From an uncultured Pelagibacteraceae bacterium (lineage in GTDB: Bacteria; Pseudomonadota; Alphaproteobacteria; Pelagibacterales; Pelagibacteraceae): a stretch of DNA of 64,000 nucleotides. The stretch is from the NCBI GenBank assembly GCA_902634455.1, contig CACPKQ010000001.1, forward strand, positions 1-64,000. The letters run 5' to 3'. A model generated the notes under the pieces. The model saw only the letters and a list, made by a program, of their open reading frames with translations. It did no database searches and was not told where the DNA came from. The position numbers and the translations under genes are program-made. Positions 9,122 to 30,342 of this stretch are shown piece by piece (positions within the stretch are counted from its first letter, which is position 1; each line of letters opens with the position of its first letter).

Positions 9122-9227
9122 TTTTTTTTTTTCTTTTAAAACTTCCTTTTCCTTTTTTAGGTTTTACCACTCTTGGTCTATATTTTTTTGTTCTTAATTC
9201 CTTTGCAATAAAATTTTTCTTATTCAT
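9108..9227 (-). CDS. ArfA-like (alternative ribosome-rescue factor) mini-protein, 39 aa (not in ORF track)
   Basis: Manual translation MNKKNFIAKELRTKKYRPRVVKPKKGKGSFKRKKKINLF*; the KKGKGSFKRK core resembles the ArfA KKGKGSYMRK motif. Overlaps both flanking genes. Confidence 0.6.
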   Translation of the reverse strand: MNKKNFIAKELRTKKYRPRVVKPKKGKGSFKRKKKINLF

Positions 9228-9810
9228 CTATTTTATAACCATTATCTAAACTTATAATAAAATTTTCATCATTAAATTTATCCTTGATCTTTTTTCTTAA
9301 CCTGTAAATATGAGTTTCTACAGTATGTGTTTCAAGTACTGATGTATGGCCCCAAACACTTTTCTGAAAAATTTCAATACTTTGCGGTCTTTTATTTTCA
9401 TTCAAATGTAAAATAATATCTATTTCTCTTTCAGTTAATTTTAATTGTTTTTTATCTTTAGTAATTTTTCTAGAATTTAAATCCAAAATATATTCTTTTA
9501 TTTTAATTTCAGACTGATCTATATATTTTTGTTTTAATAATTGAATATTCAATTTTTCAATTAATTTATTAATTGTTAATGGAAAATCTTTTAGAACTAA
9601 TATTTTTTTTTTATCTATATTTTTTTTAATTTCAAAATATATTTCACTGTTAACTAATATTAAGTAATTTCCATATTTATCTTCATTTATATTTAATAAT
9701 TCACTATAATTTTGAACTTTAAATAATTGGAATTTTAAATTTTCTTTAATTTCATCTAAAACATTGAATAAAATGTCAAAATCATAAATAATAATACTTT
9801 GTTTATTCAT
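9220..9810 (-). CDS. OmpR/PhoB-type winged-helix regulator with degenerate receiver domain
   Basis: C-term KLTEREIDIILHLNENKRPQS..VWGHTSVLETHTVETHIYRLRKKI..NGYKI is a Trans_reg_C domain; N-term lacks an obvious phosphoacceptor Asp. Confidence 0.8.
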   Translation of the reverse strand: MNKQSIIIYDFDILFNVLDEIKENLKFQLFKVQNYSELLNINEDKYGNYLILVNSEIYFEIKKNIDKKKILVLKDFPLTINKLIEKLNIQLLKQKYIDQSEIKIKEYILDLNSRKITKDKKQLKLTEREIDIILHLNENKRPQSIEIFQKSVWGHTSVLETHTVETHIYRLRKKIKDKFNDENFIISLDNGYKIDE

Positions 9811-18011: not shown

Positions 18012-19016
18012 ATGATAATAAAAAATTATGAGTTAAAAAAATTGAATGATTATCATGTTAAATTTTATCTTTTATATGGTGAAAATGCTGGCCATAAAAA
18101 TCAGGTAATTGAAGAATATTTTATAGAAAAATTTTTAAATAATACTTACCGATATGAGGAAAGTGAAATATTAAAAAATTATGAACATTTTATATCTAAT
18201 TTATTAAACAAATCTTTTTTTGAAGAAAAAAAATTAATAATAATTCAAAGAAGTTCAGAAAAAATATTAAAACTTATAGAAGAAATAATAAATAAAGAAA
18301 TTAAAGATATAACTATAGTAATTAATTGTGAACCATTAGATAAAAAATCTAAAATAAGAAATTTTTTTGAAAAAAATAAAAACACTATTTGTATACCGTT
18401 TTATCAAGACGAATTAAAAACTTTAAATTATTTAGCTAATTCTTTTTTTAAAAAAAAAAAAATTTCAGTTTCACAAGAAACTATTAATTTGCTAGTAGAA
18501 AGATGTAGGGGTGATAGAATAAATTTAAAAAATGAGCTTATAAAAATAGAAAATTTTTCTAAAAATAAAGTCAAGATATCCAGCGAAGAAATATTGAAAC
18601 TAACTAATTTAGCAGAAAATTATAATGTTTCCGAACTAATTGATAATTGCTTATCAAAAAATTTAAGTAGAACTATAAATATTTTAAATGAAAATAACTA
18701 TACTGATGATGATTGCATTTTAATTCTAAGAACTATGTCGATTAAAGCAAAAAGACTACTGAAATTAATAAAAAGTATAGAGAGTTCAGATAACCTCGAA
18801 AAGGCAATATCCAATTTTAAACCACCAATTTTTTGGAAAGAAAAAGAAATAGTAAAAAAACAAGTTCAAAATTGGACAATAAAAGATGCAAAAAAACTAA
18901 TTTATCAAATAAATGAAGTTGAAATTTTAATTAAAAAAAACTCTTTAAATTCTTTAAATATTATCTCTGATTTTATCTTAAATAATAGTAATAAAATTAA
19001 TAATTATTCTTTATAA
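18012..19016 (+). CDS. holA: DNA polymerase III subunit delta
   Basis: FYLLYGENAGHKNQVIEEY N-term, RGDRINLKNELIKIENF; leuS-lptE-holA order. Confidence 0.88.
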   Translation: MIIKNYELKKLNDYHVKFYLLYGENAGHKNQVIEEYFIEKFLNNTYRYEESEILKNYEHFISNLLNKSFFEEKKLIIIQRSSEKILKLIEEIINKEIKDITIVINCEPLDKKSKIRNFFEKNKNTICIPFYQDELKTLNYLANSFFKKKKISVSQETINLLVERCRGDRINLKNELIKIENFSKNKVKISSEEILKLTNLAENYNVSELIDNCLSKNLSRTINILNENNYTDDDCILILRTMSIKAKRLLKLIKSIESSDNLEKAISNFKPPIFWKEKEIVKKQVQNWTIKDAKKLIYQINEVEILIKKNSLNSLNIISDFILNNSNKINNYSL

Positions 19017-19842
19017 CCTCAGTCAATCTGTTTAGCTGGCCTAAATCTTTATACTCAAAAGTAACTTTTCCACTATTATTTTTCTTATTCTGAATAAAAA
19101 CTCTAATTCCTATTTTATTTTTAATACTATCTTCAAGATCTTTTAGATTAGGATCTTTTACAATTAATTTAATTTTTTTTGTTTTTTTAAAAAATCTAAC
19201 TAAATTCTCAGCCTGACGAACAGAAAATTTTTTATCAATAATTTTTTTTGCTAAAGTATAAGAATTGTCTAAACCAACCAGAATTTTTGCATGACCCTGG
19301 GATAGATAGCCATCATTTATTAATTCAATTACCTCATTGGGTAATGTCAAAAGTCTTAGACAATTGGAAACATGAGCTCTGCTTTTTCCTATAAATTTAG
19401 AAATTTTTTCTTGATCATAATTAAATTCATCGATTAATCTTTTATATCCTTCTGCTTCCTCTACAGGATTTAAATCAGATCTTTGAACGTTCTCAACAAT
19501 AGCAAATTCTAAAGACTTTAAATTATCTGCATCAATTACTACTGTTGGCACTTCATGAAGTCCTGCATTTTGTGCTGCAAGCCATCTTCTTTCACCTGCA
19601 ACAATTTCAAATTTATCCTTGCTATCTGTTTTTCTTACTATTATTGGCTGAATTATGCCTCTTTCCTTTATTGATGTAGTTAATTCATCTAAGCTTTCTT
19701 TATCAAAAATCTTTCTAGGTTGATATTTGTTTCTAACTATTGAACTGATAGAAAGCTTATTTTGTGATTTAATAACTTCATTGTCACCAATCAGAGAAGA
19801 CAAACCTCTTCCTAATCCTTTTTTTATTTTAAACGGATTCAT
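18997..19842 (-). CDS. parB: Chromosome partitioning protein ParB
   Basis: GLGRGLSSLIGD, NKYQPRKIFD, EIVAGERRWLAAQNAG, RSDLNPVEEAEGY, KSRAHVSNCLRLL. Confidence 0.97.
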   Translation of the reverse strand: MNPFKIKKGLGRGLSSLIGDNEVIKSQNKLSISSIVRNKYQPRKIFDKESLDELTTSIKERGIIQPIIVRKTDSKDKFEIVAGERRWLAAQNAGLHEVPTVVIDADNLKSLEFAIVENVQRSDLNPVEEAEGYKRLIDEFNYDQEKISKFIGKSRAHVSNCLRLLTLPNEVIELINDGYLSQGHAKILVGLDNSYTLAKKIIDKKFSVRQAENLVRFFKKTKKIKLIVKDPNLKDLEDSIKNKIGIRVFIQNKKNNSGKVTFEYKDLGQLNRLTEVIKNNY

Positions 19843-20642
19843 TAAGCTGCACTCTCCATAATTTTTTCTTGATCTAAAAATTCATCTGTAAAACTAAAAT
19901 ATGACTTACTTCCAGGACATTTTTTATCGTACAGCAAAACAGGTACTCCGTGTGATGGTGCTTCTGAAAGTCTAACATTTCTAGGCACAACTGATTGATA
20001 AACTTTATTCTTAAAATATTCTCTGGCTTCTTTTTCGACTTCACTAGATAACTTGTTTCTCTTATCATACATCGTAAGAAGGATACCTCTAATATCCAAA
20101 GATGGATTTAAACTAGATTTAATTCTTTCGATTGTCTTCATAAGTTGTGTTAGACCTTCTAGAGCAAAAAATTCAGTTTGAAGAGGTACTACCAAGGCAG
20201 TTGAGGCTACTAATGCCATAATTGTCAAAAGACTAAGGGAAGGAGGACAGTCAATGAGTATATAATCATATGATGCCCCAGAATCATTTAAAATAGAGGC
20301 TAATTCATCCTTCAATTTGAACGCTCTTCTACTATCTCCAGCAGTCTCAACCTCTAAACCAGAGAGATCTACATTGGAGGTAATCAAATTTAAATTTTTG
20401 AGACTAGTTGATTGAATTACCTGAGAAATTTCTTTATTTCCATTAAGCACACTGTAAATAGTCTGCTCAGAATTTTCTGTATTTGATAATCCAAGACCTG
20501 TTGTTGCATTTCCTTGTGGGTCGAGATCAATTACTAAAATTTTTTTTCCTTTCATAGACAAACCAGCTGCTAAATTGATTACTGTTGTCGTCTTGCCTAC
20601 TCCACCTTTCTGATTGATTACTGAAATAATTTTTTTATTCAT
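19842..20642 (-). CDS. parA: Chromosome partitioning ATPase ParA
   Basis: VINQKGGVGKTTTVINLAAGL Walker A; DLDPQGNATTGLG; adjacent to parB. Confidence 0.97.
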   Translation of the reverse strand: MNKKIISVINQKGGVGKTTTVINLAAGLSMKGKKILVIDLDPQGNATTGLGLSNTENSEQTIYSVLNGNKEISQVIQSTSLKNLNLITSNVDLSGLEVETAGDSRRAFKLKDELASILNDSGASYDYILIDCPPSLSLLTIMALVASTALVVPLQTEFFALEGLTQLMKTIERIKSSLNPSLDIRGILLTMYDKRNKLSSEVEKEAREYFKNKVYQSVVPRNVRLSEAPSHGVPVLLYDKKCPGSKSYFSFTDEFLDQEKIMESAA

Positions 20643-21277
20643 TTTTTTTGTAAATTTGAAATTTTTATCAACAATGATTCATTATTTGTTAAACTTTTTT
20701 TTTCCTCGTAATCAAATTTCCACTTCTTTGTTGCCTGTTTTAAAATTTCTTTTCCGCTTTTCCCTAAAAATAAAATTATATATTTAAATTTTTTAAAATT
20801 CTTTGACGCAATTTCAAAAATAACTGGCAAAGGTTTGAATGCTCTCGAAATTATGATATCCGTTTGCAAATTTTTTTGTTCAAAAATATTTTTTTGATGA
20901 ATTACTGTGTTTAATTTAAATTTTTTTGACATATCTTTTAAGAAATTGCTTTTATGATAACTTTTTTCGTAGAAAATCACTTTAAATACTGGTTTTTTTG
21001 CTTTCATCAAAATAGCTAGAACTATGCCAGGAAGGCCTGCACCAGACCCAAGATCAGTACATACTTTAACATCATTTTTATCAATAAAATCAATTGTTTG
21101 TGCACTATCGATAATATGCCTTGTTTTTATTGATTTTTCTGTACTTGAACTTATTAAATTTATGTCTTTATTTTTTCTTAAAATCGATAAACTATATTTA
21201 TTAAGTTCATCTAAAGTTTCACGTGAAACATTTTTTATTCCAAGTTCTGAGTTTTTTATAAAATTCGAATCAATCAA
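20639..21277 (-). CDS. rsmG: 16S rRNA (guanine527-N7)-methyltransferase RsmG (GidB)
   Basis: [43 protein letters not shown]. Confidence 0.95.
21215..21230. promoter_or_regulatory. parS: parS centromere-like site (ParB binding), inside rsmG
   Basis: AGTTTCACGTGAAACA is 15/16 identical to canonical TGTTTCACGTGAAACA; within 2.5 kb of parB. Confidence 0.9.
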
Positions 21278-28222: not shown

Positions 28223-29233
28223 TTAGTAGTCCTTTACAAGTTTTACCAAATAATCAACCATCAAAGGATCGGTTTCAGGTAAAATTCCGTGTCCTAAATT
28301 AAATATATATGGAAGATCATTAAAAATATTTAAATATTTTGTCGCCTCTCTTTTTATTTGATCTTTATCACCAAGTAAAAATTTAGGGTCAAGGCCTCCT
28401 TGGATTGGAATGTTGATTTCTTTTGAAATAGTTTTTGGATCTACATCATAATCAATACTAATTACATCAGGTTTAACATCTTCGCAAAAGCGTTTATAAT
28501 TTTTAATTTTCCTTGGAAAACATATCGCTGGAATACCAAGTTTTTTTGTGTGATTAACTAACTCCCTATTAGGTAAATAAATATATTTTTCTAAAAATTT
28601 ATCTTCATTTACTAAACCTGCCCAACTATCAAAAATTTGTATTATAGTTGCACCACTATTAACTTGATTTGTAATATGAATTTTTAAAAATTTAATTATT
28701 ATAGAAATTAAATTTGATACTAACTCATCTTTACTTTGATCAGAAATGAAGTTTTTAAAATCTTTTTTTGGAGATTCTTTATTTAATATATAAACTAAGA
28801 TTGTCCATGGCGCTCCTACAAAACCTATTAAATCTTTTTTATTAATTAATTTATTTTTAGAAGTAATATTTATTGACTTATATATAGGAGATAATTTACT
28901 AGAAAAACTTTTTTCACTAATTGTTAAAAAATTATTTAAATTTACTTCACCGAGCATAGGTCCAAAATTTTTTTTAAATTCAACTTTTTGACCAAGACCA
29001 TAGGGTAGCATTAAAATATCAGAAAAAATAATTGCAGCATCTAGTTGAAATCTTTTAAGTGGTTGTAATGTTATTTCAGGTGTTAAATTTTCATTCAAAC
29101 ATAGTTTTATAAAATCAGGATTTTTTTTTCTTATTTCTCTAAATTCAGGTAAATATCTTCCAGCTTGTCTCATAAACCATATAGGCTTACTTTTTGTATT
29201 ATTTTCCTTTATACATTTTAAAATTGGACTCAT
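28223..29233 (-). CDS. hemE: Uroporphyrinogen decarboxylase
   Basis: PIWFMRQAGRYLPEFRE, IIFSDILMLPYGLG, FVGAPWTILVY, IFDSWAGL, NLGHGILPETDP. Confidence 0.97.
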   Translation of the reverse strand: MSPILKCIKENNTKSKPIWFMRQAGRYLPEFREIRKKNPDFIKLCLNENLTPEITLQPLKRFQLDAAIIFSDILMLPYGLGQKVEFKKNFGPMLGEVNLNNFLTISEKSFSSKLSPIYKSINITSKNKLINKKDLIGFVGAPWTILVYILNKESPKKDFKNFISDQSKDELVSNLISIIIKFLKIHITNQVNSGATIIQIFDSWAGLVNEDKFLEKYIYLPNRELVNHTKKLGIPAICFPRKIKNYKRFCEDVKPDVISIDYDVDPKTISKEINIPIQGGLDPKFLLGDKDQIKREATKYLNIFNDLPYIFNLGHGILPETDPLMVDYLVKLVKDY

Positions 29234-29517
29234 ATAAATAGTAATTATATTATTTATTTATTAGTTATATATTATGTGAATAACTATAATTATTTATAAC
29301 TAACATTTTACTAACTTTTTATTAACAATTTTAACAGTAAAAAAAATCAAATATATACTGCAATTTCTATCATATTAAATTTAATAAAAAATTGTGTATA
29401 TTTGTTTTAAACATGTTTAATTATGTTTATAAAAACAATGTTTTTCATAGGAAAAAGTAATAATAAAAAGTTATTAAATATTTAGCTGACTTATTTTAAG
29501 TTACAAACATTATATAC
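29234..29517. other. Candidate chromosomal replication origin (oriC)
   Basis: Very AT-rich 284-bp gap between divergent hemE and the PPDK-regulator gene, the oriC context described in Caulobacter/Rickettsia; consensus DnaA box TGTGAATAA at 29275-29283; near-match TGTGTATAT at 29393-29401; gene strand polarity switches here. Confidence 0.7.
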
Positions 29518-30342
29518 ATGACTACTACTCATCAAATTTATTTAATTTCTGACTCAACGGGAGAAACTATAGATAGAATATTTTTAGCTCTCAAAGCGCA
29601 ATTTAAAACTTTTAAATGTGAAGACCATCAGTTTTCTTTCACAAGAACTGAAAATCAAATAATTCAAATTTTAGAATTAGCCCAAAAAAAAAATAACGTT
29701 ATTATATTATATACAATTGTTGATAGCAGACTTGCTAAATTTTTAGAAGATGAAGCGCAAAAGATTAAGATACCATGTTTTGGAGTTTTAATAGATTTAA
29801 TATCAAATTTTTCAAAACTTATTAATGAAAAAGCATCTCACATACCTAGCGGACAACATGTTTTGGATGATGAATATTATAATAGAATAGAGGCAATACA
29901 ATTTACTATGAATCACGATGATGGAAAATCAATTAATGATATAAATAAATCTGATATAATTCTTCTTGGAGCTAGTCGTACCAGCAAAACCCCTACATCT
30001 ATTTATTTAGCTAATAGAGGCTTTAAAACTTCTAATATTCCATTAGTTAACGAAAACTCAATTCCCAAAATATTAAAAGAAAAATCTCTGACAATTTGTA
30101 TAGTTGGATTAACAACAGAACCTGAAAGATTAATAGATGTTAGAAGAAATAGAATGAAATCATTAAAAGAAAGTCATGGAACAGACTATACAAATTTAGA
30201 AAAAATTAAAAGAGAAATTGAAAATTCAAAAAAAACTTTTAAAAAATATAATTGGCCAATTGTTGATGTAACGAGAAAGTCTGTAGAGGAAACTGCCGCA
30301 TCAATTATAAAGATTTACGAAATAAAAAAAGGAAATGAATAA
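29518..30342 (+). CDS. Pyruvate,phosphate dikinase regulatory protein (DUF299 kinase/phosphorylase)
   Basis: IYLISDSTGETIDRI, YTIVDSRLAKFLEDE, ILLGASRTSKTPTSIYLANRG. Confidence 0.93.
   Translation: MTTTHQIYLISDSTGETIDRIFLALKAQFKTFKCEDHQFSFTRTENQIIQILELAQKKNNVIILYTIVDSRLAKFLEDEAQKIKIPCFGVLIDLISNFSKLINEKASHIPSGQHVLDDEYYNRIEAIQFTMNHDDGKSINDINKSDIILLGASRTSKTPTSIYLANRGFKTSNIPLVNENSIPKILKEKSLTICIVGLTTEPERLIDVRRNRMKSLKESHGTDYTNLEKIKREIENSKKTFKKYNWPIVDVTRKSVEETAASIIKIYEIKKGNE

Follow-up and report, generated by a model that had tools for sequence, protein, structure and literature searches.

A putative chromosomal replication origin beside hemE in a SAR11 bacterium, with a DnaA-trio-like array and weak DnaA boxes at an 11-bp pitch

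Results

The locus and its flanking genes

The 64-kb stretch of DNA analysed here (the window) comes from a SAR11 bacterium, as its nearest relatives, uncultured Pelagibacteraceae, indicate; the assembly consists of 35 contigs and 1.086 Mb. At positions 29234..29517 it holds a 284-bp gap with a GC content of 13.7%, a putative oriC, from which hemE and a gene of the PPDK regulatory protein family diverge (Table 1). Genes of these two types are known to flank the origins of Caulobacter and Rickettsia, and the protein family matches (PF01208, PF03618) agree with the flanks named in an earlier note on this DNA, whose coordinates, boxes, inverted repeat and flanking genes were all correct base for base. 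Its description of genes pointing mostly left before the gap and right after it holds locally, for most genes from ~18.9 to 33.6 kb, but fails beyond: genes run mostly rightward in the first 18 kb of the window and mostly leftward in the last 22 kb.

Table 1. Features of the gap and its surroundings in the window. Mismatch counts refer to the 79 SAR11 gaps compared (the window and 78 relatives, which are not independent samples).
Feature	Position	Strand	Remarks
parB	18997-19842		Pfam-confirmed
parA	19842-20642		assigned from its sequence
Probable parS (AGTTTCACGTGAAACA)	21215..21230	+	best match, with 1 mismatch; beside parAB and 8 kb from the gap
hemE, uroporphyrinogen decarboxylase	28223..29233	-	PF01208, 268.7 bits
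DnaA-trio-like array, six 3-nt units	29253..29270	+	ends 4 nt before R1; consensus of relatives TTA TWG TAT TAG TAT TAT
DnaA box R1 (TTATTCACA)	29275..29283	-	anchor box beside the trios; exact in window; <=1 mismatch in 67/79, exact in 37/79
Candidate weak second box R1b	29284..29292	-	abuts R1; poor in window, NGNNAATTA in relatives
Weak DnaA box D1 (TAACTAACA)	29297..29305	+	<=1 mismatch in 31/79
Weak DnaA box D2 (TTACTAACT)	29308..29316	+	11 bp from D1; <=1 mismatch in 26/79
Weak DnaA box D3 (TTATTAACA)	29319..29327	+	11 bp from D2; <=1 mismatch in 54/79, exact in 8/79
Candidate DnaA box R2 (TGTGTATAT)	29393..29401	-	<=1 mismatch in only 10/79; weakly conserved
Candidate weak DnaA box D4 (TTTTAAACA)	29405..29413	+	<=1 mismatch in 20/79
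Weak DnaA box R3 (TTATAAACA)	29424..29432	-	<=1 mismatch in 58/79
Candidate weak box D6 (TTACAAACA in window)	29501..29509	+	just before the PPDK-regulator gene; <=1 mismatch in 55/79
PPDK regulatory protein family (kinase/pyrophosphorylase, COG1806)	29518..30342	+	PF03618, 289.3 bits

The gap in relatives

Adjacency of hemE and the COG1806 gene was found in 78 SAR11 relatives and at 26 other alphaproteobacterial loci. The gap between them measures 266-291 bp in all 78 SAR11 relatives, among which the two flanking proteins have diverged to ~58-75% identity. The median intergenic gap in the relative G002, a closed genome of 1.2 Mb, is ~8 bp by crude gene calling.

Divergent genes need promoters, and D6, which could alternatively be a promoter element, sits where the promoter of the plus-strand gene would lie, so that the gap might only regulate the divergent hemE and PPDK-regulator genes and hold no origin. 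Two groups of relatives speak against this reading. In the order-level SAR11 family f2 the PPDK regulator was undetected (0/20 genomes), yet the gap, now between hemE and maf, is kept at 271-281 bp in the six genomes whose gaps were measured (L246-L251), and most of these six gaps have TAG/TTG repeats adjoining a box. In the genus g5 (L244, L245) hemE is no longer adjacent, yet a 353-bp gap with trio-like repeats persists, bordered by rho and the PPDK regulator; it contains TTATTAGG-NN-TGTTTATAA-[TC]GGGGTTAA. Since the gap survives the loss of either flanking gene, neither neighbour's promoter explains it; together with the position of the gap in G002, described below, this makes a purely regulatory role very improbable. 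The sole URO-D family protein found in g5 is encoded elsewhere and shares ~30% identity with the HemE usual in SAR11, a sign that hemE may have been replaced in that genus.

DnaA boxes

The sequence TGTGAATAA in the R1 position is, as the earlier note stated, an exact TTATNCACA on the minus strand. A single exact box means little alone, because the 64-kb window contains 3 exact matches to TTATNCACA and 3.9 would be expected. Chance does not account for the way in which near-matches cluster in the gap and recur at fixed positions from relative to relative: the 79 gaps hold 345 sites resembling TTATNCACA, as compared to 66.6 +/- 8.4 in dinucleotide-preserving shuffles (~5-fold), and the box-like 9-mers occupy fixed alignment columns. 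The gap is AT-rich with a cluster of DnaA boxes, as is characteristic of an oriC of the hemE/COG1806 type. To describe the region as having few canonical DnaA boxes is correct in the literal sense but overlooks an array of weak ones. Three of these, D1-D3, are direct repeats with a pitch of exactly 11 bp. The D3 column alternates between TTATTAACA, TTATCAACA, TTATCCACA and TTATTCACA in relatives, with the outer TTA and ACA nearly invariant and the middle variable, as one would expect of a DnaA box. SAR11 DnaA retains the canonical DNA-binding sequence of domain IV (DHTTV motif).

The region abutting R1 mostly differs from a DnaA box by 2-4 mismatches. Its columns in relatives are nevertheless constrained, with G at +10 in 86% and A/T/T/A at +14 to +17 in 95-100%. 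We infer that R1b corresponds to the CGGGGAT of other alphaproteobacteria (see below) and that it may be a weak box. The TGTGTATAT of R2 is one mismatch away from a DnaA box, as had been claimed; it was rejected as a major conserved box on account of its weak conservation.

A DnaA-trio-like array beside R1

In basal unwinding systems, a DnaA box is followed by a short spacer and by repeated trinucleotides of consensus 3'-GAT-5' (PMC8287927, PMC6669920). The SAR11 gaps carry T at positions -7, -10, -13, -16 and -19 from R1 in 96, 99, 99, 99 and 94% of cases, each followed mostly by A and then by G or T. Runs of TA[GT] average 2.87 units in the gaps and 1.06 +/- 0.06 in shuffled sequence, and at least three in-phase NAN trios lie within 16 nt of a DnaA box in 59 of the 79 gaps, where the commonest spacer is 4 nt. 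The window's own array is imperfect and among the weaker ones, with a strict run of only 2. The TAG/TAT units stand 5' of TGTGAATAA on the top strand, which, to judge from E. coli oriC, would be the expected orientation. The T-A-[G/T] array with its 4-nt spacer appears to match the DnaA-trio basal unwinding system. Taken by itself, the trio profile is unspecific, because higher-scoring sites exist elsewhere in the window and in G002; it is meaningful only beside R1.

Comparable patterns are not confined to SAR11. Many other alphaproteobacterial hemE/COG1806 gaps have TAG repeats before TGTGNATAA, often with a CGGGGAT abutting the box, and their trio score is 2.12 against 1.02 +/- 0.11 in shuffled sequence. 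As the pattern of trios and box is common to these gaps, the core looks ancestral, which suggests that a box-plus-trio core beside hemE is older than the split of SAR11 from other alphaproteobacteria.

The 9-bp inverted repeat

The earlier note had placed the exact box at the centre of a dyad that might be specific to the lineage, and a perfect 9-bp inverted repeat is indeed formed in the window by TTAGTTATA (29261-29269) and TATAACTAA (29295-29303). Its perfection is what favours a functional dyad around the box; however, the pairing is not conserved, since the aligned positions in relatives keep 4.30 of 9 pairs where column composition predicts 4.21, and no more than 3 of the 79 gaps show a 9-bp inverted repeat of any kind around R1. 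It is also at chance level, as 66% of shuffles of the window gap hold a 9-bp inverted repeat with a loop of up to 40 (mean 1.8). Of its two arms, the left one falls within the trio array and the right one extends into the first weak box. On the sequence comparison, the dyad has arisen by chance in AT-rich sequence, and we rejected it as a functional element; it is refuted as a conserved one, at most a narrow species-level role is possible, and a lineage-specific function of the kind proposed has hardly any probability left.

CtrA sites and methylation

The origins of Caulobacter and Rickettsia carry CtrA sites (PMC1914354), and the TTAA-rich repeats at 11-bp pitch could be read as such sites (TTAA-N7-TTAA) instead of DnaA boxes. 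In some relatives the sequence is TTAACATTTTATTAAC, in agreement with the CtrA consensus, and CtrA sites are known at Cori. Against this, no protein above the CtrA family cut-off was recognised in eight SAR11 genomes (best 148 of 350 bits), using a Rhodobacter-type model which 1 of 14 control genomes passes and which a diverged SAR11 CtrA may escape. CtrA motifs are unenriched in the gaps (56, versus 42.8 +/- 9.9) and there are none in the window gap. The invariant letters of D3 are TTA---ACA, which resemble a DnaA box and not TTAA. CtrA sites were therefore rejected as the main reading of the array, for which we see little chance. The lack of CtrA sites does not disqualify the gap as an origin, because these sites vary even among accepted members of the hemE/COG1806 type, such as some Wolbachia and Ehrlichia (PMC1914354).

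GANTC, the CcrM target, is depleted in the 79 SAR11 gaps (2 versus 8.6 in shuffled sequence), and methylation sites of this kind were rejected as a feature of the gap. A CcrM-type methyltransferase family member is present, in line with PMC3973325, as are HU/IHF-type genes.

Uniqueness of the core and whole-chromosome evidence

A core profile comprising the trios, R1 and R1b, trained without the window, scores 29.3 bits at 29275 and 5.7 at the next site in the window; in G002 the homologous gap scores 33.0 bits and the next site 10.8. The corresponding values for a D1-D3 profile are 28.6 versus 11.4 bits in the window and 33.2 versus 13.6 in G002, where the gap is also the densest TTWTNNACA cluster of the genome. 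In other SAR11 genera and in family f2 the core profile becomes less powerful, and trios were read there by eye and with a looser pattern.

Skew and strand-switch evidence comes from relatives only, the window's assembly being in 35 contigs. In G002 the coding-strand bias gives a best origin at 66.0 kb, close to the gap at 67.0 kb, which ranks 3 of 600. A GC-skew minimum elsewhere, for example near dnaA, had been named as evidence against an origin here. The raw cumulative minimum of G002 does lie elsewhere, at 97.9 kb and 31 kb from the gap, whereas the best two-arm fit to the skew falls at 72 kb, ~5 kb from it. The gap of G021 stands at the maximum skew contrast (20 sampled segments), and in G015, of which 55% was sampled, the skew fit lies 39 kb from the gap. 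The true origin could thus be elsewhere within ~40 kb, near the raw skew minimum or near dnaA, which in G002 is at 129.5 kb and 63 kb from the gap. However, the strand-bias and skew fits of G002 favour 66-72 kb and no second site matches the core profile comparably well, so that we regard this alternative as improbable as well.

The best parS match in G002 (1 mismatch, at 75138) is 8 kb from the gap and beside parAB, as in the window. Each of these two sequences has a single near-perfect parS, inside or beside the rsmG/mnmG junction.

Discussion

We assign a probability of roughly 0.93 to the reading that a SAR11 bacterium starts the replication of its chromosome in the gap beside hemE (oriC), the DnaA-box and trio mechanism being predicted from sequence. 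Five independent lines support the oriC assignment: the conserved gap length and box positions, the unique core profile, the strand and skew fits, the nearby parS, and the survival of the gap when a flanking gene is lost. A published description of a SAR11 oriC was not found in our literature searches, which does not prove that there is none.

By analogy with Bacillus subtilis, DnaA would bind R1, aided by the weak abutting site and by the D1-D3 array, whose 11-bp pitch corresponds to one helical turn. From R1, ATP-bound DnaA would be guided leftward onto the T-A-[G/T] trinucleotides of the top strand and would stretch that strand, so that the AT-rich DNA beside hemE could open for helicase loading. 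The weak boxes on the right (D4, R3 and D6) probably raise the local concentration of DnaA. The arrangement of box, short spacer and trinucleotide repeat is common to the SAR11 gap and to the B. subtilis basal unwinding system, with its DnaA-boxes #6 and #7 and DnaA-trios (PMC6669920, PMC8287927). In contrast to the latter, the predicted SAR11 system has trios of both TAT and TAG, a degenerate candidate for the second box and a position away from dnaA.

Alphaproteobacterial origins are already known from this location; what is added for SAR11 is the trio array, the weak-box array at 11 bp and the apparent absence of control by CtrA. The origin of Caulobacter crescentus, Cori, resembles that of SAR11 in that the same genes flank it divergently and the AT-rich gap between them holds DnaA boxes, and the core of its W-box, TCCCCA, is the reverse of CGGGGAT (PMC4285127). 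In comparison with Cori, the SAR11 gap is much shorter and more AT-rich, its weak boxes resemble TTATTAACA and follow one another at 11 bp, and SAR11 has neither a recognised CtrA gene nor an excess of CtrA sites. The origins of Rickettsia and Wolbachia are likewise AT-rich, belong to alphaproteobacteria with small genomes, and are bounded by hemE (and by COG1806 in Rickettsia); whereas no CtrA was recognised in SAR11, these bacteria keep ctrA, with variable numbers of CtrA sites (PMC1914354). A tentative extension, to which we give somewhat less than even odds, is that the SAR11 origin is CtrA-free and that, with genome streamlining, its timing is set mainly by DnaA acting through one strong box, the trios and deliberately weak TTATTAACA boxes at 11-bp pitch.

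Few kinds of cell on Earth are as numerous as those of SAR11, and estimates of their growth from metagenomes rest on origin-to-terminus coverage; the SAR11 terminus has been inferred from coverage (PMC9589681). A base-level map of the origin would anchor such estimates and offer a defined target for work on replication control in a streamlined alphaproteobacterium without a recognisable CtrA.

A divergent OmpR-type response regulator, of which only the C-terminal DNA-binding half is recognisable, is encoded at 9220-9810 on the minus strand of the window. In all closed SAR11 genomes examined, similar PF00486 matches lie ~17-28 kb from hemE (in g5, from the PPDK regulator), and it is possible that this protein is an origin-linked regulator.
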